Shown: positions 13,248-44,383 of the stretch, one piece after another | Layout: each line of letters opens with the position of its first letter | How positions within the stretch are numbered: position 1 is the first letter of the stretch | Assembly: GCA_963971425.1 (NCBI GenBank) | Contig: OZ020515.1 | Location: 3,526,678 to 3,590,677, forward strand | DNA from: Bryoerythrophyllum caledonicum | Taxonomy: Eukaryota; Streptophyta; Bryopsida; Pottiales; Pottiaceae | Direction: 5' to 3' | DNA: 64,000 nucleotides | Notes under the pieces: generated by a model | Told to the model about the DNA's origin: nothing | Database searches by the model: none | Seen by the model: the letters and a program-made list of their open reading frames with translations, nothing else | Program-made: the position numbers and the translations under genes

Positions 13248-13257
13248 GCAACTTGTG
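13248..13257. repeat. Target-site duplication, left copy (GCAACTTGTG)
   Basis: The ten bases GCAACTTGTG lie immediately outside the left end of the 17.6-kb element and recur exactly at 30858-30867. Removing the element and one copy restores the phrase CAACTTGTGTAGATGTGAGAAAC, which is typical of the surrounding foldback subrepeats. Confidence 0.9.
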
Positions 13258-13306
13258 CAGCGACGCTATCTTGTGAGCGGTGAGCGGTGAGCGGCGAGCG
13301 GTGAGC
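13258..13306 (+). repeat. Left terminal inverted repeat of the MULE
   Basis: It pairs with 30809-30857. After the first dozen bases, the match runs through GCTATCTTGTGAGCGG and the heptamer run with about one mismatch. The GTGAGCG heptamers may be transposase binding units; that is inference. Confidence 0.88.
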
Positions 13307-14029
13307 AGAAAATAGTCTAAAAACAGGAAAAAAAAGTTGTTTTTTTCCAGATTTTTTTTTCACGGAAAGGAACGATAACTCTTACAAACTTTGCGGAAAA
13401 AATTGGAAGAATTTTCTAAACTTAGAAGGTACCCTATAGCCGTGGAATCACTAACCATAGACGTTTTTTAGCCACTCCCTTTCGTCGCTCATGTCCAGAA
13501 CTTTCAACTCCCGGTTTTAATTCCATTTATTAAATGAATAAAATTACAAAGTCCACAATCAAATAAATTTTTTGAATAAAATCTGATAAAACTTACAATG
13601 ATTGTGGAGTCCAATAGTAATGGATGTGGAGTCATATATTATCATTGTGAAAGCTATAATAACAACGTTTGGGACAAATAATATTCTAATCTTTTAATAT
13701 TTGAATATAAACTATTCTCCAATGGATTAAGATATCCCATCTCTCCACATTGACTTTGCATCGTTCAAAATTAGAGATGTTTTATGATCCAATGTATGAC
13801 ATAACTTCTGCATGTTGCTAACATAGCATCTCTGAAGTCGGTATAAATAATGTGTAAGAAAACTGATACATTGAAATATAAATTAGTATATTGAAGAGAA
13901 GTATGAGTGATAAATTCACTCATGCATTGACTACTAGCCATAAACGTGACAAGCAAAATCAATGCAGATGTTCAAATACGAGCTACTGCAAAATACAAAT
14001 ACTATTCAAAAGATACTTCATTGCGAGAT
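13307..14029. other. Left subterminal region of the MULE
   Basis: AT-rich non-coding DNA between the TIR and the transposase stop codon, presumably including the 3' untranslated region and terminator of the minus-strand gene. No other gene was seen. Confidence 0.5.
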
Positions 14030-17000
14030 TCATGCTTGCTCGGCAATATTAGCAAGCTCTAGAATGCGCATGACCTCGTTAAAGCTGTAGCTTGGAGCAT
14101 GCATGAATATGTCCTCCTTGTAGTCCATCTTACATAAATAGCGTAGGATGTAGTACACATGCTTGCAGTACTTCCATTGCCCTTTCTTCCCCAACGCCTC
14201 CACTGACATCTTCAGGAAATCTGGACATGTACACGCAGGGTAGTCTGTGAAGGTTATGCAATAAGACTTCTCTTTCTCCGTTAGAAGAGTTATAACACAC
14301 CCAAATCCCGGATACGGCATTGCGGTGACATTTGTAACGTAGCAATTCTTCATCAGAGCTGCGCTTGACCACTTGTTTCGGTGCTCAACGGAAGGCACAT
14401 CTGAACTTCGGCGAATCTGGTAACCGTTGCGGAAAGTATGGTATGAGTCTGGATTCTCTGGAAGCGGGAAGTTTGAACGCGGAAGAGGCATGTTCAAAGT
14501 TACTTGGAATTGTCTACGAGGCGACAAAGCATCACGTTGCTCTAACTGAAAACCTGCTTCTTCTAACGATAAAACTTCTTGCATCGTAAGGTTCGTGCCA
14601 AGCTTCACTGGCCATGTCATTGGGACTGATGGCCAGTCCACTACAAACGGTTTCTTCGAACCCATCACGCATCGGCTAATATCATCAGCACAAAACCAGA
14701 ACTCGACAGTAGTATTTCGGGGCGACCTGAATTCCTTCTTCTTGCCAATATATGTTGGAGCAGGTGTTCCCTGACTCCCACGCCCAACTCTAGCATCACA
14801 TCTCTGACCTGTGTGAACTTGTAATGCCTGGCACTTTCGGTGGGAGGTCTTCGGAAGTCGACCAATGTGCCACTTTGATGGATCAACCTCCGATTCCAAC
14901 ACTGCCGTTGTATGACGGACCCCGGATCCTTGTTCATTTAGGGCCTCTTCGATCCGCGCCCGAGTCACCCTTCTACCATCTCGTGGAATAGAATAGTTCA
15001 CTGTATCGGAGCGGTGGGAGTCGTTGCTCGACCCGGGTGGCATGTCGAGTTTCCGTTTGGTAGACCCAAAAATCTCCGCTCCTACGAGTCCGGCCGTCTT
15101 TGTTAAGAGATCCTCTACCCCCGGAAAACTCCGCACAGCTTCTGCAATGAGTCTTGGATCACCAGAACGTTGGGCAAATCTTAATCGAAGTGTACCTTTG
15201 TCTGGACCTTTTCCGGAGGTCCCTCCATTGATCCATGCCCGGTACAAGGTGATTTGCATGAATGCCCGAATTAGGTCATCCACGGTAGCCGCATATAAAC
15301 ATGTCATGGTATTCCCGGACTGTTGAAGCCAGCGGTTGTGAACTGTTTCCGCAAGATTACATGATGGCATGTCAGCTCGCTCGTCGAGTGTGAGGTCCTG
15401 ATATCAAACAGCAATGGTCAGTTCATCGTTCACATATAACTTTTTAACAATTTGAATATTGATAAACAAAAAATGGGAGAACTTACCAGTTGCATTGCTC
15501 CACCCCATTGTCTATATCGGAAATGCCAAAATGCCATCCAATCTTCCAGCGCACGACGCCCACTTTCGGTAGTGGCCCCAGATGAAATCCACCATCCACG
15601 AATGACGTTGTACTGTGCTTCAGCCTCTTCTTGTGACCTCGCGTTCTTCCAAATCCTGCAAAGTGCAATGTGTTGATCTTGGAATGCTGGTAGAATGCTC
15701 TTCGTGGTGGCTCGTTGAAGGCACTTAGTCCAATGGAATAAACAAGTCCGTTCTTTGTTTTCGATGGGGACGTCCTTGTCGCCATTGCCATACACTCGCC
15801 GGACAGCGTGCCAATTCGCTCCGGCACTATCAGCCATGAACCCCTTAAAGTTTGTATTCTCCACTCCTTGATGGCTCATCGTATCATTCAGGTTCTCCCA
15901 AAACAACTGTTGTGCTTGAGCATCCTCCGATTGCATATCACACATAGCTATCGTCATAACTCTACAATACTTACTATCGTATACATGGCATGCCATGGTG
16001 GTCCAGTCTTTAACCCGCTTGACGTGATAAAACATCAGCCAACAATCTTGGAGGTCTCCACCAGGTTGCATCCGCCGAACAAGATCAACACCGCTACCAG
16101 GACGATCAACAGACATTTTAAATACAAATACTTTACCTTTAGATTGGCCCGGGAACTTGTTCTCATGGATGAAGACAAACTTTGACGAGGCCTTCAGCTC
16201 CATGATGTTGTCCATGACACCCTTCCCACCACTGTAGAAGCGCTTGCATGTCGACACCAAATTCCTTATGTTAGGGGATGACAGAGTCTGGAACTGATCC
16301 AAGACAGCATCCATGGATGCTCCTTCAAGGTTTGATGATCCCGATCCAGGACGTATCAAGTAATCGGAAAGGTAATTCTTACTGGCAGCCATAATGATTG
16401 CAGAGTTAGTGGCGTTGGGTGTGCGCTCGACTTCCTTCGCAACGCACTCATGCATCACGTCCATTGCGGTTTGGTCAACTCCATTCGAGATGGGATGCTG
16501 GTGAATACCAAGATGAATGGCAAGTCGGGTGCGCTCCGCATCGGCACACGTAACATAATAAATTCGTGCATCACAGAGAGCTAGACAAATAGGCGCGGTT
16601 TGACAAACCTTACAAGCCAAGGTTGATTTCGGGTGCGGAGCGCCATTGACAGGCCAGGAGGAAATGGCGAGTCCACTCCACTCCGTTTGATTAGTGCGAC
16701 CTTCATTCCTGCACTTATAGTCACATTGAAGGTTAGGACATTGAAGATGGCCAGTACAAGATGACTTCCGATATGTCAGGCCAAAATCATTCATGATATT
16801 CGTCGTCATTGTCTTGCACCATGTGTGACCATCGTGTTGCTTGCTCATACCATCCAGTCCACCTCCAAACTGAGTTGGTATACCTTCTGGAAGTGGAGGC
16901 AACTCAAATAACACGTCCCCATAGTAAGACGGAGGCAGATACTTCACACGTGAAACCAGAATGCTGTCGAAATCCACGTGTGTCAACTCAGAACGGGATC

Positions 17001-17706
17001 CCTTTCTAGAACAGGTCCTACGAACATAAGGAATGATACTGCGGATACTTTTAGATTTTGGATGGACAGGTGGTTTTCTTAAGAAAAGAGACGGAGACAT
17101 GTGCGACCTACTTGGGGTATGGATAGACGCATCGGGACAGATAGAGTCTTGTGACTTAAAGGTGTACGATGATTCCCCCAAGTTTACATCAGAGAGGTCC
17201 TCCTCTGTGTCACTTAGAATATGCACACTGGCGATAGACCGTGTCCCCAAACCGGGCACGAGTATCGTATCACCGGAATCGGTAGGAGGAATCATCACGG
17301 CACACGACGCATTAGCAGACGTCTGAGTATCCCTAACACCATACACTTTAAAAGAACCACGATACAGGTTCCACAGAAAGCCTAAATCGTCTCGATCTTT
17401 CACTTGGTATATAGAATGTTCTAATACTCCCGAGCTATCAAACACCTCTTGTTCAACATGAATGGTTCCAAGTCTAAACCCGAAGCGACTACTAAGAACT
17501 GCCTCCGGGACATTTACAGTGCCATTTTCACCAACGGACACGACAAGCGGAACACCACCGTTCTGAGATGTGAGTGACGCCATAGTCAAGAGCTCTCCAG
17601 AGCATAGGATATGGAATGCGTGTTGTCTATGATGACGGTTGTATATTGAGGAGATCAACTTCTTGCCTAAACATCTTAGTAGAGACGTCCAATTACGGAA
17701 ATGCAT
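14030..17706 (-). CDS. MULE-type transposase with SWIM zinc finger, 2 exons, ~1195 aa
   Basis: Exon 1 is 17706-15487, the intron 15486-15398 (89 bp, GTAAGT...CAG) and exon 2 15397-14030; the frame is kept across the junction (GGAMQL then DLTLDERAD). An inner ATG at 17583 (MASLTSQNGG) may be the true start, because the first 41 residues look non-conserved. A cysteine/histidine region at about residues 315-405 (CTGHLQCPNLQC ... GIHQHP) resembles the WRKY/GCM1-like DNA-binding finger of MULE transposases. The catalytic core at about 575-665 shows VYDSKYC, FMADSAGANWH and CLFHW, fitting D, D and the C-x2-H of the family. A SWIM finger lies at about 1127-1155 (ACTCPDFL ... YCKH). It would cut and paste the flanking element. 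The third acidic residue was not assigned with confidence. No internal stop is seen. Confidence 0.8.
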
Positions 17707-18478
17707 CGTGCTTATTATCGGCGATAGTATTTAACGCCTTATGTCAGATGTCCATTCACGCTCCCTGACGGCGCTTCAATCTTTATGGTAAAGATTCCAA
17801 TTTAGGAAAGAAATTAATAGGTTGATCCTACTATGGCGGAGTTTTCCAATCAGGGCAAAAGCAGTACGTTCACATGTTTTTAACTGAATTGACAGCAAAT
17901 AGCAAATGAGAAGAGAGATGTGAGATGACAAATTGAAATAGAGTAAAATAGTATGTTTACTGCAAGAATCGCCTAAAACAAAATTTAACGTTACGGCTCT
18001 ATAATGTATTTTTATTCTGCGAGTTTCACTTGCACACTATCTGACACAACTCTATTTAACAAGACATTGTTCTGATTCAAATCTAGAGGTCATGATGTGA
18101 GTCAGCAATTTACAAACACATATGCTCTAGTTGTATATGCTAAGGCACTAAATCTGCTTAAAGTTAATTCTTCCCTGGTGTCACTGTTATTCACTTAAGG
18201 TGAATTATAAATCCAGAAAATTGGAATGCTTGTGACTCCAGAAGCAAAAAATAGAAATGCTAAAGCAACGACTAACTTTCTTTTTGAAATTCAAATTAAG
18301 GCTGTCAACAATTAATAAAACTTGATGCGAATTATGGGCCATCCCGTTGGCAATTGATTGATATAGTAACATTGAACTCCGTAGGGTTAATTATGGCTCA
18401 ACGATGTCTTGCCATATCATAGCAGCACTACCCTGGTGAAAATGTTCAATGTGACGCAACCAGGAGGACTTGTAGAGG
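17707..18478. promoter_or_regulatory. Divergent promoter region between the two MULE genes
   Basis: About 770 bp, AT-rich and without coding signal, separates the transposase start (-) from the ParB/MTase-like gene start (+). Both promoters must lie here or in the first exons. No clear TATA box was assigned. The arrangement implies the two genes may be transcribed together. Confidence 0.5.
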
Positions 18479-21400
18479 ATGACAAGCAAGTGTGGCCGGA
18501 AGAGAAGAACAACAGACGACTCAAATCAAAATCCGAGTCGGTCTCGAACGCAGCGACTCCAACAGAAGGTCAAGGTTTTAGAGGAGAGGCGTGAGGACCT
18601 GTCATCTGAGGGGCCCGTGCGATTCAGGAATCTGTCAAGTATACTTCAAGCAGAAGAGGCGCCACACATTACTGTCGAAGTAAGTGCTTCATTTTCATAT
18701 GATTAGTTAATTTTCAATAGTGCAACTCGTGTATTTGTCATGCATTAAATCATATTGTGTAGTCGTACAACTATGTGATGCAGCTGCGTTCTGAAAGGGG
18801 AGAACAAGAGTCTATACAAGATATTATGACGAGTGATTTCACGGGACCCAATGCGTCAGTAAGCTCGATGCATGGGGGCAAGGGTGCAAACGGTGTTGTT
18901 GACGACAATGACTGTCAAAGCATGGACTCAAGTATGGACCCTAGAAGCCGAGTGAATTCAACACGATCCACAAGGAATAGGAATAGGACCACGTCAAGGG
19001 CAACCAATGGTCGACCACGGAACGATCGCGGGAGCGCGGGGGAAACTGGGCCAATACTATTTGGTGCAGAGCGGGTTCATATGACACAGGTACAATATCA
19101 TCAAAATGATTTATAATATGCATCGTATGTTTGGTTTCCGTAATTTTTAATGCGTCACCAACTATACTGTGCGTTATGCTTCTCAGTCTACTAGGTTTCT
19201 TGAATCTGCCAACTAGTATGTGAGGTGATTGACCATTTCAATATTCGCGAGTTATAAGCTCTCTGGATCATTTTGAATTCAACTCGAGCACGAACTTTTG
19301 CTACTGTAGGGCTTCACAGAACCTCTACTTAACATACCATTTAGTTCGTGAACTTTCAAGTAGCGGCTGAAGTATACTTCTGGTGTGTTAATCGATTTCT
19401 GCTACAGTTTCTGCCCTAGCATAGCATTTTGGAGTCGTCCATGAACTTTAGTTTAAATGAAAGATGCACATGCTGAACCTGGATATGCATAAGAAGGAAT
19501 CCCATTCTTTTGCAGGCAGGAGGTTGTGAGAACGGTGAAGGATGTGGACAGTCACTTGACGACGCCGAGCAGCAGCCGCAACCTAGACAGGTAAGTTGGA
19601 ATCATTTTCAACTCAATTGTTTCACCCCGAAATCGGGAATGCAAACTCATGTGTCTGCAATTGAAGTTCGGTACAGGAATTATAAATTTGAACACAAGTC
19701 CCCCGAACATTACCCAACAAACATTTCTTGATATCCATTCCAGTAAACCCTGATAGGGTGAGCCTTGTTCATTTTCTTTTCGAAAACCCTAAATGCGTTC
19801 AGACATAAGCAGGTTGGTGCTTCTCAGAGTGGAGCCGAAGTTGGGTATAGGCGCTTCGGAGCAGACGTTGTCGAGAACGGGAAGAACCGGCTCACTGTAA
19901 TGGTGAGTTTCAATTCAACTCGGACTTGAAACCTGATTTGCATCATCTTGGAAAGGATGACGATGGATTTTTGTTTATTCATGATTCGTATCACCTCGAG
20001 CTTGCTACGTATGCGTGCTTACGTTTTCTATCAGTCGTGAGGGTTGGAATTTTAGGCTAGTATACTTGATCGAAACATAGGGTCCATATAAGATCGATTG
20101 TTGAGTTGGTTTAGTCGTGCATTACTTGAAAGCAATTTTAGGTCAGAGTAAAAATCTGGAAATGGAGCTTCGAGGAACAGAGGACTGCCTCGGTTCCGAG
20201 GTACTGTGGGAGGTAGTCAAGTCTGGTTTTTTTTTTCTCAATTTTGGCAACCTCAGGATTCGTATTTCTGTATGCCTCATTAATGTGCATGCATTCGTTT
20301 TCAATTACGCATGTGTGTTGGATTCGTTGCCTAGTAATGTTGATAGAATATTTGTGTCCATTTCGGAATGTAAGTAGTGATAGTATTCTCGTGCATTTCT
20401 TGAAGTGAAGTTTTGGTTAGTGTGCAAAATCTGAAATGGAACTTGCGAGTCTAGCGGAGTGCCTCGGATCCGAGGTACTGTGGGTGGAGGTCAAGTCTGG
20501 TTCTTTTTTTCTCAATTCTGGCATATTCATGATTCGTATTTCTGTGTGATTCACTAATGTGCGTGCATTCGTTTTCAATTACGCATGTGTGCTGGATTCG
20601 TCACCTAGTAATGTAGAGAACAAATTTGTGTCCATTTCGGATTGTTAGTAGTGCTGGTATTCTTGTGCATTACTTGAAGTGAATTTTTGGTGAGTGTGCG
20701 GAATCTGAAATGGAACTTGGGAGTCTAGCGGAGTGCCTCGGATCCGAGGTACTGTGGGTGGAGGTCAAGTCTGGTTCTTTTTTTCTCAATTCTGGCATAT
20801 TCATGATTCGTATTTCTGTGTGATTCACTAATGTGCGTGCATTCGTTTTCAAATACGCATGTGTGCTGGATTCGTCACCTAGTAATGTAGAGAACAAATT
20901 TGTGTCCATTTCGGATTGTTAGTAGTGCTGGTATTCTTGTGCATTACTTGAAGTGAATTTTTGGTCAGTGTGCGGAATCTTAAATGGAACTTGGGAGTCT
21001 TGCGGAGTGCCACGGATCCGAGGTACTGTGGGTGGAGGTCAAGTCTGGTTTTTTTTTTCTCAATTCTGGCATATTCATGATTCGTATTTCTGTGTGATTC
21101 ATTAATGTGCGTGCATTCGTTTTCAAATACGCATGTGTGCTGGATTCGTCACCTAGTAATGTAGAGAACAAATTTGTGTCCATTTCGGATTGTTAGTAGT
21201 GCTGGTATTCTTGTGCATTACTTGAAGTGAATTTTTGGTCAGTGTACGGAATCTAAAATGGAACTTGGGAGTCTTGCGGAGTGCCTCGGATCCGAGGTAC
21301 TGTGGGTGGAGGTCAAGTCTGGTTTTTTTTTTCTCAATTCTGGCATATTCATGATTCGTATTTCTGTGTGATTCACTAATGTGCGTGCATTCGTTTTCAA

Positions 21401-24400
21401 TTACGCATGTGTGCTGGATTCGTCACCTAGTAATGTAGAGAACAAATTTGTGTCCATTTCGGATTGTTAGTAGTGCTGGTATTCTTGTGCATTACTTGAA
21501 GTGAATTTTTGGTGAGTGTGCGGAATCTGAAATGGAACTTGGGAGTCTAGCGGAGTGCCTCGGATCCGAGGTACTGTGGGTGGAGGTCAAGTCTGGTTCT
21601 TTTTTTCTCAATTCTGGCATATTCATGATTCGTATTTCTGTGTGATTCACTAATGTGCGTGCATTCGTTTTCAAATACGCATGTGTGCTGGATTCGTCAC
21701 CTAGTAATGTAGAGAACAAATTTGTGTCCATTTTGGATTGTTAGTAGTGCTGGTATTCTTGTGCATTACTTGAAGTGAATTTTTGGTCAGTGTGCGGAAT
21801 CTTAAATGGAACTTGGGAGTCTTGCGGAGTGCCACGGATCCGAGGTACTGTGGGTGGAGGTCAAGTCTGGTTTTTTTTTTCTCAATTCTGGCATATTCAT
21901 GATTCGTATTTCTGTGTGATTCATTAATGTGCGTGCATTCGTTTTCAAATACGCATGTGTGCTGGATTCGTCACCTAGTAATGTAGAGAACAAATTTGTG
22001 TCCATTTCGGATTGTTAGTAGTGCTGGTATTCTTGTGCATTACTTGAAGTGAATTTTTGGTCAGTGTACGGAATCTAAAATGGAACTTGGGAGTCTTGCG
22101 GAGTGCCTCGGATCCGAGGTACTGTGGGTGGAGGTCAAGTCTGGTTTTTTTTTTCTCAATTCTGGCATATTCATGATTCGTATTTCTGTGTGATTCACTA
22201 ATGTGCGTGCATTCGTTTTCAATTACGCATGTGTGCTGGATTCGTCACCTAGTAATGTAGAGAACAAATTTGTGTCCATTTCGGATTGTTAGTAGTGCTG
22301 GTATTCTTGTGCATTACTTGAAGTGAATTTTTGGTCAGTGTGCGGAATCTAAAATGGAACTTGGGAGTCTTGCGGAGTGCCTCGGATCCGAGGTACTGTG
22401 GATGGAGGTCAAGTCTGGTTTTTTTTTTCTCGATTCTGGCATATTCATGATTCGTATTTCTGTGTGATTCATTAATGTGCGTGCATTCGTTTTCAAATAC
22501 GCATGTGTGCTGGATTCGTCACCTAGTAATGTAGAGAACAAATTTGTGTCCATTTCGGATTGTTAGTAGTGCTGGTATTCTTGTGCATTACTTGAAGTGA
22601 ATTTTTGGTCAGTGTACGGAATCTAAAATGGAACTTGGGAGTCTTGCGGAGTGCCTCGGATCCGAGGTACTGTGGGTGGAGGTCAAGTCTGGTTTTTTTT
22701 TTCTCAATTCTGGCATATTCATGATTCGTATTTCTGTGTGATTCACTAATGTGCGTGCATTCGTTTTCAATTACGCATGTGTGCTGGATTCGTCACCTAG
22801 TAATGTAGAGAACAAATTTGTGTCCATTTCGGATTGTTAGCAGTGCTGGTATTCTTGTGCATTACTTGAAGTGAATTTTTGGTCAGTGTGCGGAATCTAA
22901 AATGGAACTTGGGAGTCTTGCGGAGTGCCTCGGATCCAAGGTACTGTGGATGGAGGTCAAGTCTGGTTTTTTTTTTCTCAATTCTGGCATATTCATGATT
23001 CGTATTTCTGTGTGATTCACTAATGTGCGTGCATTCGTTTTCAATTACGCATGTGTGCTGGATTCGTCACCTAGTAATGTAGAGAACAAATTTGTGTCCA
23101 TTTCGGATTGTTAGTAGTACTGGTATTCTTGTGCATTACTTGAAGTGAATTTTTGGTGAGTGTGCGGAATCTGAAATGGAACTTGGGAGTCTTGCGGAGT
23201 GCCTCGGATCCGAGGTACTGTGGGTGGAGGTCAAGTCTGGTTTTTTTTTTCTCAATTCTGGCATATTCATGATTCGTATTTCTGTGTGATTCACTAATGT
23301 GCGTGCATTCGTTTTCAATTACGCATGTGTGCTGGATTCGTCACCTAGTAATGTAGAGAACAAATTTGTGTCCATTTCGGATTGTTAGTAGTGCTGGTAT
23401 TCTTGTGCATTACTTGAAGTGAATTTTTGGTGAGTGTGCGGAATCTGAAATGGAACTTGGGAGTCTAGCGGAGTGCCTCGGATCCGAGGTACTGTGGGTG
23501 GAGGTCAAGTCTGGTTCTTTTTTTCTCAATTCTGGCATATTCATGATTCGTATTTCTGTGTGATTCACTAATGTGCGTGCATTCGTTTTCAAATACGCAT
23601 GTGTGCTGGATTCGTCACCTAGTAATGTAGAGAACAAATTTGTGTCCATTTTGGATTGTTAGTAGTGCTGGTATTCTTGTGCATTACTTGAAGTGAATTT
23701 TTGGTCAGTGTGCGGAATCTTAAATGGAACTTGGGAGTCTTGCGGAGTGCCACGGATCCGAGGTACTGTGGGTGGAGGTCAAGTCTGGTTTTTTTTTTCT
23801 CAATTCTGGCATATTCATGATTCGTATTTCTGTGTGATTCATTAATGTGCGTGCATTCGTTTTCAAATACGCATGTGTGCTGGATTCGTCACCTAGTAAT
23901 GTAGAGAACAAATTTGTGTCCATTTCGGATTGTTAGTAGTGCTGGTATTCTTGTGCATTACTTGAAGTGAATTTTTGGTCAGTGTACGGAATCTAAAATG
24001 GAACTTGGGAGTCTTGCGGAGTGCCTCGGATCCGAGGTACTGTGGGTGGAGGTCAAGTCTGGTTTTTTTTTTCTCAATTCTGGCATATTCATGATTCGTA
24101 TTTCTGTGTGATTCACTAATGTGCGTGCATTCGTTTTCAATTACGCATGTGTGCTGGATTCGTCACCTAGTAATGTAGAGAACAAATTTGTGTCCATTTC
24201 GGATTGTTAGTAGTGCTGGTATTCTTGTGCATTACTCGAAGTGAATTTTTGGTCAGTGTGCGGAATCTAAAATGGAACTTGGGAGTCTTGCGGAGTGCCT
24301 CGGATCCGAGGTACTGTGGATGGAGGTCAAGTCTGGTTTTTTTTTTCTCGATTCTGGCATATTCATGATTCGTATTTCTGTGTGATTCATTAATGTGCGT

Positions 24401-27400
24401 GCATTCGTTTTCAAATACGCATGTGTGCTGGATTCGTCACCTAGTAATGTAGAGAACAAATTTGTGTCCATTTCGGATTGTTAGTAGTGCTGGTATTCTT
24501 GTGCATTACTTGAAGTGAATTTTTGGTCAGTGTACGGAATCTAAAATGGAACTTGGGAGTCTTGCGGAGTGCCTCGGATCCGAGGTACTGTGGGTGGAGG
24601 TCAAGTCTGGTTTTTTTTTTCTCAATTCTGGCATATTCATGATTCGTATTTCTGTGTGATTCATTAATGTGCGTGCATTCGTTTTCAAATACGCATGTGT
24701 GCTGGATTCGTCACCTAGTAATGTAGAGAACAAATTTGTGTCCATTTCGGATTGTTAGCAGTGCTGGTATTCTTGTGCATTACTTGAAGTGAATTTTTGG
24801 TCAGTGTGCGGAATCTAAAATGGAACTTGGGAGTCTTGCGGAGTGCCTCGGATCCAAGGTACTGTGGATGGAGGTCAAGTCTGGTTTTTTTTTTCTCAAT
24901 TCTGGCATATTCATGATTCGTATTTCTGTGTGATTCACTAATGTGCGTGCATTCGTTTTCAATTACGCATGTGTGCTGGATTCGTCACCTAGTAATGTAG
25001 AGAACAAATTTGTGTCCATTTCGGATTGTTAGTAGTACTGGTATTCTTGTGCATTACTTGAAGTGAATTTTTGGTGAGTGTGCGGAATCTGAAATGGAAC
25101 TTGGGAGTCTTGCGGAGTGCCTCGGATCCGAGGTACTGTGGGTGGAGGTCAAGTCTGGTTTTTTTTTTCTCAATTCTGGCATATTCATGATTCGTATTTC
25201 TGTGTGATTCACTAATGTGCGTGCATTCGTTTTCAATTACGCATGTGTGCTGGATTCGGTGCCTAGTAATGTTGATAGAATATTTTTGTCCAATTCGGAA
25301 AGTAAGTAGTGATGATTTTCTTGTGCATTACCTGGAGTGAAGTTTTGGTCATTGTACGAAATGTGGAATGGAACATGGAGGTCCAGAGAAGTGTCTCGGA
25401 TCCGAGGTACAGTCGGTGGTAGTGAACTCTGGTTTTTTGTTGGCTGTTTCTGGATTCATATTTCTTCGAGCTTGAAGTGTGTGAGCATTTTTTTTCGTGT
25501 TGTTGTTTGAATTTCCTAACATATTTCACTGGATGTCATTGGAAGGAGTCACTGAACGCAGACAAGGTCACACCATCAAAGCACATGGAAATGCCTAGTG
25601 AGGACACGTTATCGACTCCAGGGGTTGCAGGTTCGCCGGCGCCAGAGGCTTCGAGATTGCCGAATCCTGAATCGAGTTTAGTCCTGCAAGTTATACTGGT
25701 GATAGGGGTGGATCCCGGTTTGGACACAACTGAGCATTCATTGAGGAAGTCCATTCGTGGGACTTCCTACGATGTGCTCCAGAAGTCTCATCATCCATCT
25801 ATTGGTGAGTTGCACATCCCCCTCTGCCGAATGTTGCCGATGACAGAGGTGCGTATTCCAGTCAAGCCGGACATTGAGAAGCTGAAGAGCGAGTTTGTTA
25901 AAGGCTATCGCCCAGGATCTGCATGTTTCTATGTTGCATTGAAGGACTTCTCCATGGTTGAACGGGAGGTTTTGCCTGAGGAGCGCGAAGGATGGTCAGA
26001 CCTTTGGAGGGCGGAGGACCTCAAGTTTGAAGCTTTGATTGCGAGTAGGCCAGAGTTGTGCGGCCTTTCCGATCGTTACTTATTTGTGTGGGATGGCAAC
26101 CACCGCCATCTTGCATGGATGGATGTCATATCCACCATGCACAGAAACGATTCTGCCTTTCATGTTCCGGTTCGGGCAGTAATATTAGAGCCCACATTGG
26201 TGAACCGCCATATATTACTAAACGCTATGACGGACTGGAACAAGTGAGTTCTTTGGTTTATTTCCTTTCTTGTTCTCTTATTTCATCAGTTATGAAAAAC
26301 TATTGGTATTTCCGCTTGACTTTGAAGTTAATAAACATTGAAACTCAGGCAGAAGGATTCCGATCATGTGACACAGCAACTGTCACATGATGTGAAGAGA
26401 GTTCAACATTTTGGACTGTTGGACTTTGATCAGCTCAAGGGTCTGATTAGTGAGGAGGATCACGATGCTAGTGTGGCGGAGTGGGCTAGGAAGGGCACCA
26501 AAAAGTGGTACCATATGACCTTTGATTCATTCTTGAAGTTACTTTATGAGGTACGATGGGGTTAAATTCGGTCCATCATTGTGAATTCTATGTTGTTATT
26601 CATGCCCAAGAATTCGTATATGTAATGAGGCTTTGGATTTGTTTGAGAAAGTATACTAATATCCAACAAAATTTTCTTCGTGTAGCGGGAGCTTATTGCA
26701 GCTCAAGAAGATTGTATTCGATCTTACCGTGACACACTTGTGACTGGTGTTGGGGCTGATCGTGTTGGGAGCTCTGCGGAGTTAGTCACTCTATGCTCTG
26801 AAGCGGTGCAAAAGAAGAAGACTCAATGTGGCACCTTACTCACTCGACTTCTTGCCATTGCTGACCCTCGTAATGGTGAAGAGTTTTTCAAAGAGGTAGT
26901 CATTTATTCAATTCTTTGTACTCGTTCATTCAGTATCTTTTAAATGATTTTTTGTTTTTTATTGACCACTTCTCTGCTATCGTTTGAAACAGGTTCTTCA
27001 TCATTATGATGTTTATCAGAACAAGCCCGAAATTACAACGGAGAAGTTGCAATTGCTTTGCACTTCCAAGGTTTCTGCGAGGTTCAAAGGTAGATGGATG
27101 CGTTGGTGGAATCTGTCGAAAGAGGGGCGTGATGAATTCAATTTTCCAAAAGCACCATGTTCGGAGATCACTCTTAAACCCTGGCTTGACGTGGCATCAT
27201 TTTGGGCTGGGGTAAGTTCAAATTTCTTTTATCGTTTTCTGTTTGTTTTTCCATCAGTTGAAAGTCTTGTTTACTAACATTTTGTTTTTCTTCTACAGCT
27301 TGAGGAGGAGGCTGAGAAGTTATTTGCCAAGGTTGTCAAGGATGACAACATCACTATGAGAATGGAGGGTCTCCCTAACCTCGTTCTTGATATTGGCTCT

Positions 27401-29633
27401 TGGGTTGAGGCCAACTCTCTCACATTTTGGAAGAAGGCGTTCAAGAACCATTTCAGTGGGCAGAAGCCGTTCGTGAAGTCTGATGAATTTCTCAAGCAGC
27501 CCGAGACACCTCAGAGTGTGAAGAGAGTTGTGCTCCGCTATTTTTGGCGAGAGCTCGTTGCCAATGGAGCTTTGCAGCCTCGGGATAGGCTGCCTATCCG
27601 GCTGAGGAAGTGGTGTGATATCACAGTCAGCGCTGAGTGCATTTTCACAGAGTCTCAGTTGCGCCGTTTTACTCGGCATCATTTGGCTCAGTGTCCTTGG
27701 TACTTGGAGCTTTGGCATTCAGCTCCAACTCCAGGTGACGAGGTGGAGCTTCGAGAGTCATGTGATGCCTTGGCTCAACATTCTGGTGCGGGTCCAGCTT
27801 TGCAGGCTTCAGCTTCATTCCAGGTTGAGCCTGACCTTGAGCTCTCTGAAAAGGCCAAGGAGAGGGCACAACAGAAGGCGGCCTGGACTGCAGCCAGAGT
27901 CGCTGAGCGAGAAGCGGCCCGTTTGGAGAAGGAGACTGCAAGGAAGGAGAAGAAAGAGACTCGAGTGAGGAACAAGGAATTGGCAGCTCTGGTGGCCAAG
28001 GAGGGGCCCGAGAAATTGTTGTCTGCCGTGGGTCTCGGATCGTTCTCACAGCCGGCACCTGTATTGACAACATTTGGCGCTTCTCCATCTGCCAGTAGCC
28101 GCCCAGGAGTGTTCGTTGCGAAACCAGCACAGACCATCTATTCGATTCCTGTCGTGGAACAGACAGAGTCCACTATTGCTGTTGAGGTAATCAATACCAG
28201 CGCCTACTCTATCTTTACAGACTATGATTCAATCACTGCTGAAGATGACGTTCCACCAGTATGGAGGGATATAGCACAGTGGTTGATTGCCCATGGCGGA
28301 TCCAAGACGCGATACATGAAGGGGGAGTTGACAGAGGATGGTTTGGCGGATATGTTCATATTTGACGTCCCGGAGGACTTGCCAGTTCCAGGGATTCAGG
28401 GTGGTACTGTGATTCCACCATGGAACACACTACCTACAGTGCCGACCCCCAAGGGTCGGAAAGAGTCATTGTGGATTCGGTTTAATTTCGAGTTGGCAGA
28501 GTCATTTCTTCGTGATGGAGGAGCTATCATTGTTTTTTATCCAGATTCCAGGTTCATTTCAAATGAACTGGTTTCCTGGGCTCAGTGGTCGGGTTTTGAC
28601 GAGGAGGCGAAGTGGTTCGCCATCAATGGACTTCCCCTCTTCTCTGATGCTCGCCCCGGTCGCGTACACAAGACTTTCATGGTCAAGTGCTTCGTTCGAA
28701 AGGCAGATCCTCCAACTCCATTTGTCTTCAATGACAGAGTGGAACTTTTGGCGGATGGGATTGAACTCTCTTCAGACGGTCATCTGACCAACTTCATTAC
28801 CCAGGAGTCACTGACGGTGAGAGCCTCCACCGGGATGCCATGGCGAGGAGCCAGAGAGAAGTCGCAGAATCTGTTGGAGGCACTTATTGATCTTTGCACC
28901 AAGGAGGATGAGATCGTCATGGACCTTACCGCTTCTACCGGTATATTAATTTCTTACTTGCATTTTGTGGTTTGATTATCAATCCATGATTCTAATTTCA
29001 TTCTGATTGTATTCTTCATTTTTTCTAGGTGCAAGTATCAGGGCTTGCAAAGCCCTCAAGCGTCATATTCTTGCTTTGGAGGCCGACAAGGACTTGGTAG
29101 AGGAGGTGCTTCGACCTTTGATTCCACAGACGGTGGAGGTTACTTCTGCAAATGTTGAGCCCGTGGAGCAGACTTCTCTCAAGCGCCCTTTGAAGCTTGG
29201 TGATGATGAACCAGAGATTAAGACTGCGCCTAAGAGAACTTGTAAGTAAGTTCTCTTCCTTTATTTGTTTTTCTTGTTATCTTTTTCTATCATTGGTATT
29301 TTACTAATGAAAATTTGTTGCAGACGGTTCTCGACGTCGTTGATGGCTTCTCTGTCAACACCTCCCGCTGGAGTGTTGGCTCGCCTGGCAGGGAAGGTTG
29401 TAAGTCCGGAGCATGGTCATATTTTGCCTGAATATGCCGAAGCTGCTGCCATTGCATCCGTAGCGCAGCCGTCGCCTCCACAACGTCCACCGACTACTCG
29501 ATCCGGCTCTGGAGCGTCGGATTTTGTGGATGACGAGGCTGAGGAGGCTAGTACTGATCCCGATAGTGGTTCTGATAGCAGTATGCCGTTCATCCATCAG
29601 GGCAGTGACGATGAGTTCAGTAATGAAGAGTAG
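18479..29633 (+). CDS. ParB/Srx-like + permuted DNA-methyltransferase-like protein, ~1389 aa
   Basis: Likely exons: 18479-18679, 18784-19089, 19516-19590, 19813-19902, 25546-26243, 26349-26550, 26686-26895, 26993-27211, 27299-28940, 29029-29245, 29324-29633. They total 4170 nt in one frame, all with GT-AG borders. The N-terminal ~220 residues are polar and probably disordered. A ParB/sulfiredoxin-like fold occupies roughly 300-440, with the hallmark VWDGNHRHLAW at about 403. A charged helix (AREAARLEKE type) spans ~850-905. The C-terminal part resembles the circularly permuted class of N6-adenine/N4-cytosine DNA methyltransferases. FIFDVPEDLP near 1017 sits where DPPY/W belongs, then LRDGGAIIVFYPD, and then MDLTASTGASIRACK...ILALEAD near 1208 as the SAM-binding motif I. 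The catalytic motif is altered (DVPE), so methylation is doubtful. The acidic tail ends in DDEFSNEE. The role is unknown; DNA binding within the element's life cycle is inferred. The first exons and the 5.6-kb intron are the least certain parts. Confidence 0.72.
20117..25460 (+). repeat. Tandem array, ~20 units of 274 bp, inside an intron
   Basis: Units repeat every 274 bp with phrases such as GTGCATTACTTGAAGTGA, TCTGGCATATTCATGATTCG and ACGCATGTGTGCTGGATTCG. Edge units (20117-20400 and 25260-25460) are diverged and inner units nearly identical. A 1,918-bp block of seven units is itself duplicated: private variants recur at exactly that spacing (GGATCCAAGG at 22933/24851, TTAGCAGTGC at 22837/24755, TTTTGGATTG at 21731/23649). 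A three-unit (822-bp) repeat is visible at 20670/21492. Short minus-strand open frames in the units are by-products of the repeat. Confidence 0.93.
20188..25410. promoter_or_regulatory. Palindrome CCTCGGATCCGAGG, ~20 copies at 274-bp spacing
   Basis: A 14-bp dyad is present once in each unit, for example near 20461, 20736, 21558, 22106, 23202 and 25396. A few copies have one changed base (CCACGG or CCAAGG forms), and the first copy reads CGGTTCCG in its core. A palindrome kept at fixed spacing is a candidate protein-binding site. It contains GATC. Function is inferred only. Confidence 0.5.
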
Positions 29634-30808
29634 TGATTCTTCTATTTTGTGTGCCGTATTGACCTGATATGAGGCTTTGGATTTATGGATATATCACCCT
29701 TGCAAGTCTTATTTGATTTCTTGTTTCAATAACATAAATGTTTGTACTCTAGTTAGAGATAACGTAACATATATTACAATGCAAACTTGTATTCCAAATA
29801 AGCCCGACATTATATTTCATTAATGGGGGAGAAGTACATCTATGTACCCCATATTTTCTTATACAACAGAATTAACAATATGGAAATAAAGTACATCTAT
29901 TCAACTATCTGAATTGTTTTACTGCAAATATCATAAGTCCATGGATAAATATTGCCTGAATAACTCTGCGAATTGCAATAGAAGAATTCTCTCGGATGCG
30001 TATTACTATTCTAATTGAGTCAAATATGTAGTACTATTCTAATAAATATCAAGGTGCATGAAGGGAAATGTATGAAGTGAATATGTTATATGGATATAAT
30101 AGACGAATGAAAAATAAACAAATGTAAAACGAAAACAAGAAAACTTGTTGTGCTTCATCCGCACCTACCTTGTGTCTACCCTGTATCTAAACTACACCAA
30201 GCGGAATGAGGCTGGTCTCCCAAGGTCCTTGTATACCCGGCACTAGCACCCGAAGGCTGCCACGGCAGTATCAATTGCGACTTGAGATGACCAGGACATC
30301 CTGGCTTGTCACTGGTGGTGATGATTGTACTCAGCCATTATATAGTACACCTCCCCAGCTTCACCAGTCGATATGGGATTATGGGATTATGGAAATTTCT
30401 AAAAGAGAATTCAGGGTGCCGAGTGGAAAGAATGATAGTGATGGACCATCTAAAATTATTCGAAACTTCGTAAACTATTCATGGTGTGATAAAGGTATAG
30501 TTCTAATTTCAAAAACACATTATATCAATTGTTTATAATCCATCAGTAAGAATCACTTTTTATCTATCAGATTCTCTTATCAAATTACTTTTAGTTTTGA
30601 TTTTTTGCCAAATTCCTAATAATAGTGCCACGGCTATAGGTGCCTCTATTCAATAAACTATAAATTAAAGCGATTGCAGGTCAAGAATTTCTCTTATGTT
30701 TTTTGTTTTTTGTTTTTTTTTAAAGCACGATCCACCTACACACACGGCAATAGGTGTTCTTTTTAATTTCACAACAAAAACAATGGTAAAAATTGTCATG
30801 AATTCAGT
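29634..30808. other. Right subterminal region of the MULE
   Basis: It probably holds the 3' untranslated region of the ParB/MTase-like gene, then AT-rich DNA. An open frame at 30206-30538 lies in a slightly GC-richer patch, but no family was recognised and it is not called. A T-rich run at about 30697-30722 precedes the TIR. Confidence 0.45.
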
Positions 30809-30857
30809 GCTCGCCGCTCGCCGCTCACCGCTCACCGCTCACAAGATAGCATTCCTG
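30809..30857 (-). repeat. Right terminal inverted repeat of the MULE
   Basis: It is the inverse of 13258-13306, ending CTCACAAGATAGC then ATTCCTG at the border. The heptamer run is retained. Confidence 0.88.
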
Positions 30858-30867
30858 GCAACTTGTG
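30858..30867. repeat. Target-site duplication, right copy (GCAACTTGTG)
   Basis: An exact match to 13248-13257 and directly abutting the right TIR. Confidence 0.9.
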
Positions 30868-32533
30868 TAGATGTGAGAAACATTTCACTCCTAGCCGACT
30901 TTGACACACTCCCAAGGATTGGATTTTTTGGTATTTTCCCATGAAATTTTTGACATGAGACTATCTCTATGTTGATCACATGCGTGCCAAATTTGAAGAC
31001 CAAAATATCTACATATCAAAAGATTTTTGAAATCTACCAACATGTATAGTTGTGAGAAACATTTCACTGCTGCCAACTTTGACACCCTCCTAAGGATTCT
31101 ATTTTTTATTTTTTCCCATTATATTCTATAAATAAGACCATATCTATGTTGGTTATACATGTGCTTAATTTCAAGTCCAAAAGACCCACAAAAGAAAAGA
31201 AACAAATCTAAATCTACCAACATGTGTAGTTGTGAGAAACAATGAGCGAAACCATTTCACTATTGTCAACTTTGGCACCCTCCCTAGGTCGGAAAAATTA
31301 TTAAGTGACCATGAAATTTTTGGCACAAGATCACCTTCATGTTGATAACATGTGTACCAAAATTCAAGGCCAGAAGATGAATACAAAAAACCATCTTCAA
31401 AATCTACCAAAATATGTAGCTACGAGAAACAATTTTGAATGTCCTTTTTTCTATTCATCAATTGGCCTTGGAATTTGGCACACTTATTATCAACATAGAG
31501 GTGGTCTCATGCTAAAAATTCCATGGGCAAAAAAAATTCTTTCAATCCTTGGAAGGGTGTCAAAGTTGGTCAGCTGTGAATGGCTCACAACTACACATCT
31601 TGGTAGATTTTGTATATCTTTTTTTGTATAAATCTTCTGGCCTTGAAATCTAGCACACATGTTGTCAACATAAAGGTGATCTTGTGCCAAAAATTTCATG
31701 GTAAATTGACAATTTTTCAGCCCTCAGGAGGGTGCCAAAGTTGGCAGCAATGTAGTGTGGAAACGTACAAAATAAAAAAAGTACGTATACTTGTGTGAGG
31801 ATATTGTTCAAGCATTAGATGATGATGAAATTGGCCTCATTGAGGTAATCATGTTTTATCTAAGAAAGAAATACGGATCTCAATAGAGTGAAATAGAGAA
31901 ACTTCTAGCTTTAGCTCTAGATCTGAATTCAAGCCATCAAAATGATATTTTTTGAATTTGAGTTCAACTAATGAAACAAAGCTAATGATGTCTAGTTTCT
32001 ATACCATTTTGGAAATTAAAAAAATTCGTAAAATTGAATAAGTAATTGCAATTTGAACTTGGACCTATAACCGTGGTTCTCATTTTAGCTGAACATGGAA
32101 CTTTCATTTACACCACAAGTTTTGGCACTATAATGTACACCTTTGGTGAAGTTTTCAGATTTGTTTAGCATAATTTGTATTTAATATGCATTTTCTTCTC
32201 TTTTTCTTCAGAAATCACAATAAATTCAAATTTCCACAAAATAAACCTGTGATTTCTGTAACATAACTAAGACATATGATCTCATCTCTGAATTTTAAAA
32301 AAAAATAATTCCACTTATATTTGATGAGAAACTAGAGCATATAGTTGATTGAAAATTCAAATTGATGCCACGGTCATAGGCTCTGTTGTTTAAGGGTTAA
32401 GACATCTGTGAGCAAATCATTCAAGTTTTAGGGTTCTCATGGACACTGGTTTCTGTGGTAATTATTGCAATTTGTACACAATGTATGGGGAAAGAGTTGG
32501 AAGAGGCAAAAAGGGCTCCCCACCAGCAACCCA

Positions 32534-39764: not shown

Positions 39765-40137
39765 TCGAAGGTTCTCGAGGCACATGGATGGTTATCAAAA
39801 GTCATCTACGGTTCTCGAGTGTCATCAACAGTTTTGGAAGGGTATAGCTTGTCATCAAAGTTCTCGAAGCAAGGTCGAAGGGTATTGACCGGTAGCAGAG
39901 GTCGTCGAAGGTTCTCGAAGGTATCGTAGGTTCTCGAAGGTATCGAAGGTTCTCAGAGCAGGATCGTAGGGTATTGTTGGGGAGCCGGGGTTATCGAAGG
40001 TTCTCGAAGCAAAATCGAAGCGTAAGTGACGCGTAGCAGAGGTTATTGCAGGTTGTCGAAGGTTGTCGAAGGTTGTCGAAGGTTATCGAGCAATCTCGGT
40101 GAATGGTATAAATACATGATGCACCTGCAGATGTTCC
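39765..40137 (+). promoter_or_regulatory. Heat-shock promoter: HSE cluster and TATA box
   Basis: Perfect three-unit heat-shock elements of the form GAAnnTTCnnGAA lie at 39907-39919 and 39996-40008, with two-unit forms at 39931-39938 and 39945-39952. Partial TTCTCGA or TTGTCGAAGG units recur from 39768 to 40090. A TATAAATA box at 40107-40114 puts the start of transcription near 40140 and leaves a leader of about 130 bp before the small heat-shock gene. The block looks like tandem amplification of a GAAGGTTCTC unit. Confidence 0.85.
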
Positions 40138-40270
40138 CATCATCTCATCAACCTGTCGCTCGGGAAATCTCATCGAGCCATCTCAGGTAGCAATTCTACT
40201 CAGCCTTGGAATCGAGAGATCAAGTTCTAGTGTTAGCGTTTTCAGAAAGTCTTCCAATTTCTTTGCGAAT

Positions 40271-40810
40271 ATGGCATTGTCGTCGTTTTTCGGGCGCCGC
40301 AACAACATGGTTTTCGATCCTATGGAGGCGATCGTGACGCTTTTCGACAGCGCCCCTGCGAGCTCGTTGTCGCGCGATGCGCACGCCATGGCCAGCACGA
40401 GCGTGGACTGGAAGGAGACGGCGTCGGAGCACGTGTTCAAGGCGGACCTGCCGGGGCTGCGCAAGGGGGACGTGCAAGTGCAGGTGGAGGACGGGCGCAC
40501 GCTGAGCATCAGCGGGCAGCGCAAGCGCGAGGAGGTGCGGAAGACGGATACCTGGCACCGCGTGGAGCGCAGCAGCGGGAGCTTCTTGCGCAAGTTCCGG
40601 CTCCCGGAGGACACCGATCTGGACGGCATCACGGCCGAGGTGGACAGCGGTGTGCTCACTGTGGTGGTGCCGAAGGTCGAGAGGAGGAAGCCGGAGGCGC
40701 GCCGCATTGAGATCTGTGGAGGAGCGCAGCAGGAGACGGCAGCCCCTGAAGAGAACAAGGCCGAGCAGGTTAACGGCGCTGCCACTCCCGCTCAATCCCC
40801 GCAGCAGTGA
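40271..40810 (+). CDS. Cytosolic class I-like small heat-shock protein (HSP20), 179 aa
   Basis: A single GC-rich exon. The N-terminal arm begins MALSSFFGRRNNMVFDP, typical of plant class I small heat-shock proteins. The alpha-crystallin domain runs from about residue 43 (SVDWKETASEHVFKADLPG) to about 143 and includes GQRKREE, RSSGSFLRKFRLPE and the signature GVLTVVVPK. RRIEI near residue 147 supplies the I-x-I motif that docks neighbouring subunits. The tail is longer and richer in A, E and Q than usual. It would act as an ATP-independent holdase in the cytosol. The upstream heat-shock elements predict strong heat induction. No organelle targeting signal is evident. Confidence 0.95.
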   Translation: MALSSFFGRRNNMVFDPMEAIVTLFDSAPASSLSRDAHAMASTSVDWKETASEHVFKADLPGLRKGDVQVQVEDGRTLSISGQRKREEVRKTDTWHRVERSSGSFLRKFRLPEDTDLDGITAEVDSGVLTVVVPKVERRKPEARRIEICGGAQQETAAPEENKAEQVNGAATPAQSPQQ

Positions 40811-42199: not shown

Positions 42200-44383
42200 T
42201 CATTGCAACCGCACCACCCGTTCCCGAAACCTTGCTGCAATCCAACCTTTCTCCGAGATTACGCCGACTCCAACTCTTTCAGAGACCTCCTTTCTACACA
42301 TCGTATATCCCAACAACTTAACAACCATAACATTCAGCAAACACCCCTCATGACGGATTCCGAACACCGCTTCGTCATAAGTTTCGGGCCCACAGCCCAT
42401 GTTAGAACGGGAGAGCACCGCAAACTCGAGGGGCAGCGTCGTATCAGTATCAGTTGGCAGCACAACCCTACCCATCTTCGCAGGCGGCGAAGTTTCTGAC
42501 AAAACCTCAAAGACCGAATGAAACTTGCTACCGTAACCTAGAACCTGACTCTGGTCCTCGTCGAGTTGATTGCTGACCTTCCGGACCCTCAGCAATGCAA
42601 CGGTGGTATAAAACAGTAGCGTTCCTGGAGCAACACTTGCGGCCTCCTCAACAAGCAATGCATGACCTGATGCGCTTGAAGGCCGTCGATATTTGTAAGT
42701 CGTCACCGGGCCGCAGTGCTCCCACAGGTGACGACCGATGGCAATCCGCCTGACTTGTCTGTCCGCATCAACAATGACCCATTCGTCCACCAGCGATCGC
42801 AAAGCCCCGGGTGGTCCATACATGAACCCGGAAAGATCAAAATACACCACGCTAATCTCCCAGCCAGCCCAGGACCAGCTTGGCGTGACCAACCCTTTCT
42901 CACGACGGCGGTTATCCGGTGGTGCCTTAAGCGCTGGTTGCCACAACATAGCATCCTCGAGCACGGACAACGGCATACCAAACAGAAAAGCTGTGTTCGG
43001 ATCTAACGGGGTGATTTCTATATCGCGTGAAAACACGGTTACGATGGCGAAGATTGCATTGTAGATGTCAACTATGTTTGTGAGCTGCCGTAGGGTGTAT
43101 TCCTCCAGTATCTCCATGAAGGCTTTGGCATAGGCTTGGTATCGGCTCTGCTCATCCCTCTTGTTTCTGATGGAGTGCAGCGCTCTATATCCAAGGCCGT
43201 GGGATTTTCCTGGATACATTGCCGTGTCCTTGCTGCTCTCAACGATCACGTCCTCTGAGAACACATCGCGTTGGCATTCGAAGAAGACCTGCTCATTTGT
43301 GAAGAATAGCCCCCGACGTGACAGTACCTGCTCCTGAAACGTCCACCCACGCGTGTTCCACTTTGACGCAGCCAGTGTCTCGATCAGCATCCTGAGCGGG
43401 ACGGCCAGCGACAACGATTGGATTTTCTCAATGCGTTGTAGCTCTTGACGTGATCCCGGCTCTAGCCCCGGGAGTGGAGCGTCCGCCGAGTCTCCGCCAA
43501 CAGAAAATATGGTCAGCAGTGCGGCACCATAGATTGTAGCCATCCCCGCAATCTGGGCCGCTTTGTTGACAGAATCATCTTGGACAATGCACATGGCGTC
43601 AACCCACAGATATCTTTCCTCCAGCAGATCCTTCACGACCTTGATAGCATCGCGGATAGTTCTCGGCAACGCCACGCTCTCAAGACTGCCCCTCTGACGA
43701 CGCTGATTCACATTCTTCACGACTGTTTTGTAATCCGTGTTGATCACTCCCCACATGTAACTAAGCGCAACATACCTGCAACTTTGGGGCGCCTCAACAA
43801 CCGCCATCTGGACCACATCAATCATTCTCGTGCCTTGCGGCAACTGCTCGACGACATTCTCCCAGACATTGCCACAAGACGGTCCATGTTCCTTCTCACA
43901 AATTCCCATCCACTCCTTAAGTAGTTTGAAGTCAACCACCGCCCCTACCCTACGTCCATGATACGCGCGGTCACGTCCAAACCTGGCCGCATCATCTTCC
44001 ATCATCTGCAGCTCCATCGTAAGGCTTAGCTTCTCCTCCATTACCACTCTATGAATCGCAATTGGTCGCATGGCACGGACTTCAATGCGATGAGCGCATG
44101 TAACGAGTGGCACATCTTGAGAAGAATCTGGCCAGCTGCAGGGTACTACGAGCAGCTGAACACGCACCGATGTGAGGTCTTCACTTGTGTGCCGGTCAAG
44201 AAGCCAACTGCGGGAGATCAAGTGAGAGATCAAGCCACAGAGACCGCAAATGTGCTTCTTCGAGAGGATTGTGGCAAGGGCGCCGAGGGTGATGGACTGA
44301 GGCTCTCTCACGCCCTTGCGGAACATCTGGTCTAAGTCCAAGGCGTTACAGATTTTGCAGAGCTGGACCAGACACATTGCCAT
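42200..44383 (-). CDS. HET-domain protein, fungal type, 727 aa, single exon
   Basis: The frame is open from ATG at 44383 to its stop near 42200. The HET domain lies at about residues 215-320: YVALSYMWG, then LPRTIRDAIKVV, RYLWVDAMCIVQDD and YGAALLTIFSVGGDSADAPLPG. It is followed by the usual WNTRGWTFQEQVLS and FFECQRDVF block at about 345-385. The N-terminal ~200 residues and the C-terminal ~340 show no family I can name. In filamentous fungi HET domains trigger cell death after incompatible fusion. From memory, HET-type genes are also known in mosses and are usually explained by transfer from fungi. Lack of introns fits such an origin. A small fungal contaminant contig is excluded by the flanking plant genes, if the assembly is sound. 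Confidence 0.88.
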   Translation of the reverse strand: MAMCLVQLCKICNALDLDQMFRKGVREPQSITLGALATILSKKHICGLCGLISHLISRSWLLDRHTSEDLTSVRVQLLVVPCSWPDSSQDVPLVTCAHRIEVRAMRPIAIHRVVMEEKLSLTMELQMMEDDAARFGRDRAYHGRRVGAVVDFKLLKEWMGICEKEHGPSCGNVWENVVEQLPQGTRMIDVVQMAVVEAPQSCRYVALSYMWGVINTDYKTVVKNVNQRRQRGSLESVALPRTIRDAIKVVKDLLEERYLWVDAMCIVQDDSVNKAAQIAGMATIYGAALLTIFSVGGDSADAPLPGLEPGSRQELQRIEKIQSLSLAVPLRMLIETLAASKWNTRGWTFQEQVLSRRGLFFTNEQVFFECQRDVFSEDVIVESSKDTAMYPGKSHGLGYRALHSIRNKRDEQSRYQAYAKAFMEILEEYTLRQLTNIVDIYNAIFAIVTVFSRDIEITPLDPNTAFLFGMPLSVLEDAMLWQPALKAPPDNRRREKGLVTPSWSWAGWEISVVYFDLSGFMYGPPGALRSLVDEWVIVDADRQVRRIAIGRHLWEHCGPVTTYKYRRPSSASGHALLVEEAASVAPGTLLFYTTVALLRVRKVSNQLDEDQSQVLGYGSKFHSVFEVLSETSPPAKMGRVVLPTDTDTTLPLEFAVLSRSNMGCGPETYDEAVFGIRHEGCLLNVMVVKLLGYTMCRKEVSERVGVGVISEKGWIAARFRERVVRLQ

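Follow-up and report, generated by a model that had tools for sequence, protein, structure and literature searches.

A probably inactive, methylase-derived protein beside a palindromic tandem array in an intact-looking, probably Mutator-like DNA transposon

We analysed a 64,000-nucleotide stretch of contig OZ020515.1 (hereafter the window), in which a DNA transposon carries a spliced gene, ORF2, opposite in strand to a transposase-like gene. The C-terminal part of the ORF2 protein is derived from an amino-methyltransferase of the permuted, CcrM/DpnA-like kind and retains the sequence pattern of that fold, but its catalytic motifs are changed and catalysis has probably been lost. We propose that ORF2 is an inactive methylase-derived accessory protein that binds the element's own DNA, in a role like that of VANC in the VANDAL transposons; we give this reading a probability of roughly 0.38. 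The pairing of a methylase with a ParB-like domain in eukaryotic transposons has already been published (PMC12477816; here and below, statements on cited papers refer to the portions of their text that were available). What is new is the plant host, the Mutator-looking element, the lost motif and, just upstream of ORF2, an array of 274-bp units with 20 palindromes. The interest lies mainly in finding a probably dead methylase together with an array of palindromes.

The methylase-like part of ORF2 resembles its family more closely than chance would allow. Searched alone, residues 729-1025 match PF01555 (N6_N4_Mtase) at 30.3 bits (E 5.1e-7), above the family's gathering cut-off of 26.7; in the whole protein the match covers residues 828-1003 and falls slightly under that cut-off (25.9 bits, E 1.2e-5). 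A DNA methyltransferase model in PHROGs matches at 7.5e-6 and the NCBIfam CcrM model at 2.5e-6, the latter with 26.7 bits, far below that model's own cut-off of 830. Among PDB sequences, the top matches are CcrM (0.0013) and two DpnA entries (0.0018 and 0.0019), while the fourth and last is unrelated (E 2.4). Alignments with CcrM and with sets of 4 and 36 phage methylases give the order of the motifs: DVPE occupies the place of motif IV and is followed in turn by the 'GGAIIVF' strand, by the target region, by the place of motif X and finally by motifs I and II. An earlier note on this DNA, made from its letters, had proposed such a domain in the permuted N6/N4 order with DVPE in the DPPY slot, and both points are supported.

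A fold of the domain, built from the phage-methylase alignment, reached middling confidence (predicted local distance difference test, pLDDT, 54.3). Each of the best 50 of its 163 Foldseek matches is an N6-adenine methyltransferase or a subunit of one (MTA1 complexes, AMT1-AMT7, M1.HpyAVI and METTL3-METTL14), with a best E of 0.0046 and none of the 163 at 0.001 or better. Because the model ends inside motif I and is steered by the phage-methylase alignment, these matches are partly circular, and the structure does no more than agree with the sequence result.

The same alignments point to a loss of catalysis. Identity to the 36 aligned phage methylases is 14-27%. Motif IV in these relatives is DLPY (24), DPPY (7), DPDY (3) or DLPF (2); its last position is thus aromatic in 36 of 36 and a glutamate in ORF2, whose DVPE departs from the D/N/S-x-P-Y/F/W motif. 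Motif X, which is xHPTQKP in at least 31 of the 36, reads RGAREKS, and motif I reads DLTASTGAS where the relatives have D-x-C-M-GSG. Since every one of the relatives is aromatic where ORF2 has glutamate, the ORF2 methylase is probably inactive, and the changed catalytic motif would favour binding without methylation.

A candidate for the bound sequence lies in the neighbouring array. The palindrome AGTGCCTCGGATCCGAGGTACT occurs in 20 copies, one per 274-bp unit, from 20186 to 25392. At all 20 positions its 18-bp core is present with at most one mismatch, GATC is found in 19 of them, and elsewhere in the window no site comes within four mismatches of the core. Over the full 22 bp, 10 of 11 positions pair, a degree of symmetry that 5 of 5000 shuffled units matched. 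Diverged repeat sequence extends beyond the array on both sides, and in the diverged copy at the 3' edge 20 of the 22 palindrome bases are preserved, compared with 191 of 272 over the remainder. Within the array, a seven-unit segment occurs twice (21282-23199 and 23200-25117), near-identical in order at the 15 variant sites examined, which is a sign of segment duplication by recent unequal exchange. Given the splice options at the 5' end of ORF2, the array is the first intron of the gene, its promoter region, or a spacer between two genes. The region around it (20001-26000) also has a strong strand asymmetry, with a GC skew of 0.23-0.27 and an AT skew of -0.24 to -0.29.

In our proposal, ORF2 would serve as an accessory protein of this plant DNA transposon, which looks intact and is probably Mutator-like. 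The methylase-like part of ORF2 and its N-terminal region, perhaps ParB-like, would make up a putative DNA-binding protein aimed at the element's DNA, with the 22-bp palindrome in 20 units of the array, upstream of ORF2 or in its first intron, as the likeliest target. By analogy with VANC, we infer that binding of the palindrome would act against silencing, so that the element stays open to transcription and transposition despite the host. Several points weigh against this. The loss of catalysis is read from motif changes, other 22-bp windows of the edge copy tie with the palindrome, making its conservation there suggestive only, and the array might function in transcription, for the transposase or not at all. 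Moreover, the isolated N-terminal region has no match in Pfam, NCBIfam, PHROGs or PDB sequences, and none of the tests run on it gave a significant ParB profile match. A bolder form of the proposal, which we consider unlikely, is that the element carries its own centromere- or parS-like palindrome array, bound in a sequence-specific way by an inactive prokaryote-type methylase (perhaps with a ParB-like clamp); the two would form a self-recognition device that acts against host silencing or in copy handling, with parts unlike those of VANC. If the proposal is true, VANC would no longer be the one self-recognition system of its sort in transposons but would be joined by a second, drawn from a bacterial DNA-modification fold, and the range of the algal ParB-methylase transposon proteins would widen to include plants and a different type of transposon. 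Loss of the catalytic motif would then suggest that the retained function is binding and not methylation, a point of direct relevance to the published proposal of self-modification.

Perhaps ORF2 has some other accessory role, for instance as a transposition cofactor, in nicking or in a partition-like process, and the array is a promoter, enhancer or satellite-like expansion that has nothing to do with it. This we regard as possible but somewhat doubtful. ParB-type domains may nick DNA or act on nucleotides, as in the ParB-methylase Bce_0392 (PMC5512222), and a near-identical duplication of seven units is typical of unconstrained satellites. However, the array adjoins ORF2, and the palindrome has been retained in the diverged edge copy, suggestive as that point is.

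It is rather improbable that ORF2 instead has N6-adenine or N4-cytosine methyltransferase activity and marks the DNA of the element itself, for example at GATC or GGATCC within the palindrome. The match to PF01555 and the GATC in 19 of 20 palindrome copies speak for this, and activity of this kind has been proposed for the similar Sola1 protein (PMC12477816). Yet glutamate stands where all 36 relatives have the aromatic residue of motif IV, and motifs X and I are altered as well.

The N-terminal region is the weaker half of the fusion. The earlier note had assigned it to the ParB/sulfiredoxin (Srx) fold through VWDGNHRHLAW, and the proposal rests on these approximately 11 residues; together with the FHVPVRAVIL that follows, they look ParB-like to the eye, judged by what we take to be the family pattern. 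We compared the region with a reference set of 15 phage ParB domains, drawn from 14 of 754 phage records. With hhalign, the score was 13.3, on a stretch away from the motif; at least eight of 150 shuffles scored higher (the top eight at 16.5-22.5), while 13 other windows of ORF2 scored lower (7.7-12.0). With hmmsearch, 25 of 300 shuffles outscored the region. The score of an 18-residue block at the motif was -3.51, against 32.5-45.7 for the 15 members themselves, and the best block score anywhere in ORF2 was reached by 1568 of 3000 shuffles. Two shortened versions, with about 45 residues before the motif removed, did slightly better, though not significantly (exceeded by 29 and 64 of 1000 shuffles). 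A tblastn search of phages for this part returned three records at E 3-4, annotated as DNA polymerase, and AlphaFold2 run on residues 29-219 from the single sequence was uninformative (pLDDT 30.8). The earlier note had suggested profile searches and structure prediction: the methylase half, searched alone, matches N6_N4_Mtase above its cut-off, with fold matches that are partly circular and no more than consistent with it, and the ParB half gives neither a significant match nor a usable model, and shuffled sequences often score higher. What is left is a resemblance at the level of a motif and a parallel with the published algal protein; the ParB fold is unproven, and we treat it as a lead.

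Joined, the exons of ORF2 form one open frame of 1,152 codons and a stop, and all five motifs that had been picked out beforehand lie in it: WDGNHRH at residue 169, DVPE at 786, IIVFYPD at 840, MDLTAS at 971 and LALEAD at 992. The six introns are all GT..AG, 78-135 bp long and 25-34% G+C, against 45-55% G+C in the exons, and none of 2000 shuffled versions of exon 5 remains open. The span first put forward for the gene, 25546-29245, needs a partial correction, since its start is compatible with an optional extension that uses a weak AAG acceptor but its end is that of exon 6 and omits the exon at 29324-29633. The four small exons upstream, which have no Pfam match above a cut-off, either form a small gene of their own or belong to the 5' end of ORF2. 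In the latter case the join would use a weak acceptor, AAG or GAG, at 25546 or 25549, and the protein would have 1,389 or 1,388 residues; with the regular CAG acceptor at 25562, the frame between these exons and ORF2 would be broken. Several models of the 5' end are therefore possible, and the gene model is a prediction from the sequence. Nevertheless, it is very unlikely that the model is wrong or that two genes, rather than one, encode the methylase and the N-terminal region, as seven exons share one frame with canonical A+T-rich introns, and the length of the protein is near that of the published 1,104-residue algal protein.

The element around ORF2 is well delimited. Its target site duplication (TSD), GCAACTTGTG, has two copies on the plus strand of the window and no third. 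The terminal inverted repeats (TIRs) are 50 bp each and 92% complementary, and their 22-bp core is found at both ends of the element and nowhere else. With the element taken out and the flanks joined, their alignment to related repeats runs through the junction; these repeats lie at 31001-31300 and, on the minus strand, at about 60.2-60.6 kb. The insertion therefore took place within one copy of a local family of repeats. Terminal repeats, a target site duplication and empty sites around the gene confirm that ORF2 is carried by a transposon, and the earlier claim that it is a plant one is supported. The repeat family at the insertion point is dispersed and partly tandem (177-bp), with members at 30859-31241, at about 34.2-34.8 kb (by score only) and at about 60.2-60.6 kb (minus strand). 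Runs of the heptamer GTGAGCG lie within both TIRs (13273-13306 and 30809-30842, 4.9 copies each) and are possible transposase sites.

The transposase-like gene suggests, with less certainty, which superfamily the element belongs to. Ten stop-free joins were tried for its intron, and the canonical one combines a GGTAAGT donor with an ATCAG acceptor. Near the C terminus of the product we read by eye a SWIM-like C-x-C...C-x-H pattern (CTCPDF..YCKH), although the piece carrying it has no match in Pfam. One fragment matches the Pfam model Transposase_mut below its cut-off of 21 (12.7 bits, E 0.06), and the full spliced protein has no Pfam match; relatives of the protein were neither confirmed in viral contigs, with a search that reaches close relatives only, nor found in phages, and negatives from such collections of prokaryotes and viruses say little. 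Mutator-like elements (MULEs) have a TSD of 8-11 bp, and a SWIM zinc finger is listed for many of their groups (PMC6446971). The perfect 10-bp duplication found here falls within that range. As the duplication fits and the transposase profile match stays below its cut-off, we go no further than calling the element probably Mutator-like. The features described so far are collected in Table 1.

Table 1. Features of the transposon and of its genes, in window coordinates
Feature	Position	Strand	Basis or remark
Complete DNA transposon, 17,600 bp	13258..30857		TIRs, perfect TSD, related empty sites
Left TSD, GCAACTTGTG, 10 bp	13248..13257		Same as 30858-30867
Left TIR, with GTGAGCG-type heptamers	13258..13307	+	92% complementary to 30808-30857
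Transposase-like gene, two exons, putative ATG start	17583-15487 and 15397-14030 (14030..17583)	-	Open reading frames and a frame-keeping intron
Four small phase-0 exons	18479-18679, 18784-19089, 19516-19590, 19813-19902	+	Span 18479..19902
Tandem array, 274-bp unit, about 19 copies and diverged edges	20182..25438		Between the small exons and ORF2
ORF2, seven exons, 1,152 residues	25585..29633	+	Uninterrupted spliced frame
ORF2 exons	25585-26243, 26349-26550, 26686-26895, 26993-27211, 27299-28940, 29029-29245, 29324-29633	+	
N-terminal region, residues 29-219, with VWDGNHRHLAW; proposed ParB-like, unconfirmed	25669..26241	+	Motif only
Permuted amino-methyltransferase-like domain, residues about 729-1006, exons 5 and 6	28193..29114	+	DVPE in the motif IV slot, DLTASTGAS in the motif I slot
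Right TIR	30808..30857	-	92% complementary to left TIR
Right TSD	30858..30867		Copy of left TSD

Where ORF2 came from is a separate question. The earlier note saw a hint of capture of a prokaryotic or phage module, and this part of it found no support. Specific descent from phage fusions was rejected: a profile built from 85 ParB-methylase fusions of phages (six named phage proteins and 79 of the 80 viral loci retrieved) matches ORF2 only at residues 954-1005, in the S-adenosylmethionine (SAM) region, with 6 bits; so weak and partial a match leaves direct capture from phages unsupported. The 79 fusions from viral contigs were chosen for DPPY, so its presence there is a selection. Whole ORF2 has no relative among IMG/VR and GTDB contigs, searched with a method that reaches close relatives only; as these collections hold prokaryotes and viruses, the absence says little. 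Numerous phage ParB-methylase fusions exist, but recent capture of a phage or bacterial cassette is highly improbable given the lack of a close relative in these collections, the 14-27% identity to phage methylases, the six introns and the published cases in algae. An old eukaryotic transposon gene is more likely, because similar proteins have been reported in brown, green and red algal transposons.

Elsewhere in the window, an HSP20 gene (40112-40810) has as its closest PDB sequence heat shock protein 16.9B (1gme, E 2e-38), which we take to be a wheat protein. This match, together with the short A+T-rich introns of ORF2, marks the window as eukaryotic and plant-like, and the host is likely a land plant. 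On the minus strand of this plant-like contig, a 729-codon open frame (42200-44389) contains a HET domain (PF06985, E 2.7e-32), a domain named from fungal heterokaryon incompatibility. Adjacent tandem arrays with an 18-bp unit (TTGTCCGTATCTTCCAGC) and with 66/131-bp units occupy 62607-63170.

Several known systems can be set beside ORF2. It shares with CcrM/DpnA-type amino-methyltransferases (PF01555) the permuted motif order and the pattern of the SAM region, but has DVPE for DPPY and changed motifs I and X. The fusions of phages and Bacillus cereus (PMC5512222) have the same claimed pairing of domains; however, the six named phage fusions that we used are 414-428 residues long, against 1,152 in ORF2, and the profile of phage fusions matches it weakly and in part. 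Bdelloid rotifers offer another eukaryotic case, N4CMT (PMC8885841), an amino-methyltransferase of bacterial type with links to transposons and tandem repeats. Unlike ORF2, it is a host gene with a chromodomain and an active SPPY motif, and it deposits N4-methylcytosine (4mC) at transposons.

The closest protein by description belongs to Sola1-1_Ec32, a 21.5-kb Sola1 element of the brown alga Ectocarpus (Dinatale et al. 2025, PMC12477816). Its accessory protein, of 1,104 residues, is reported to combine a ParB-like DNA-binding domain with a methyltransferase of the 4mC or N6-methyladenine (6mA) type and lies on the strand opposite to the transposase; similar proteins are cited there for green and red algal transposons, and the published suggestion is that these proteins could bind the transposon that encodes them and change its epigenetic state. 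ORF2 likewise has about 1,100 residues, with a methylase domain and an orientation antisense to the transposase. It differs in its plant host, in its changed catalytic motif, in that the ParB part is unconfirmed and in the presence of the palindromic tandem array; moreover, with a 10-bp TSD and a SWIM-like transposase, the element here is not an obvious Sola. In a search of titles and the openings of abstracts, nothing among the matches listed, beside PMC12477816, suggested a ParB-methylase transposon protein.

For the proposed role, the model is VANC of the VANDAL Mutator-like elements. The short motif to which VANC21 binds has been multiplied by tandem repetition, and VANC brings about a loss of methylation; the motif occurs in introns of two genes, VANC21 itself and VANB21, and also upstream of VANA21 (PMC5735166). 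Whereas binding and methylation loss have been demonstrated for VANC (PMC5735166) and would hold for ORF2 by analogy, both are, by description, transposon accessory proteins beside tandem repeats that carry a short motif.

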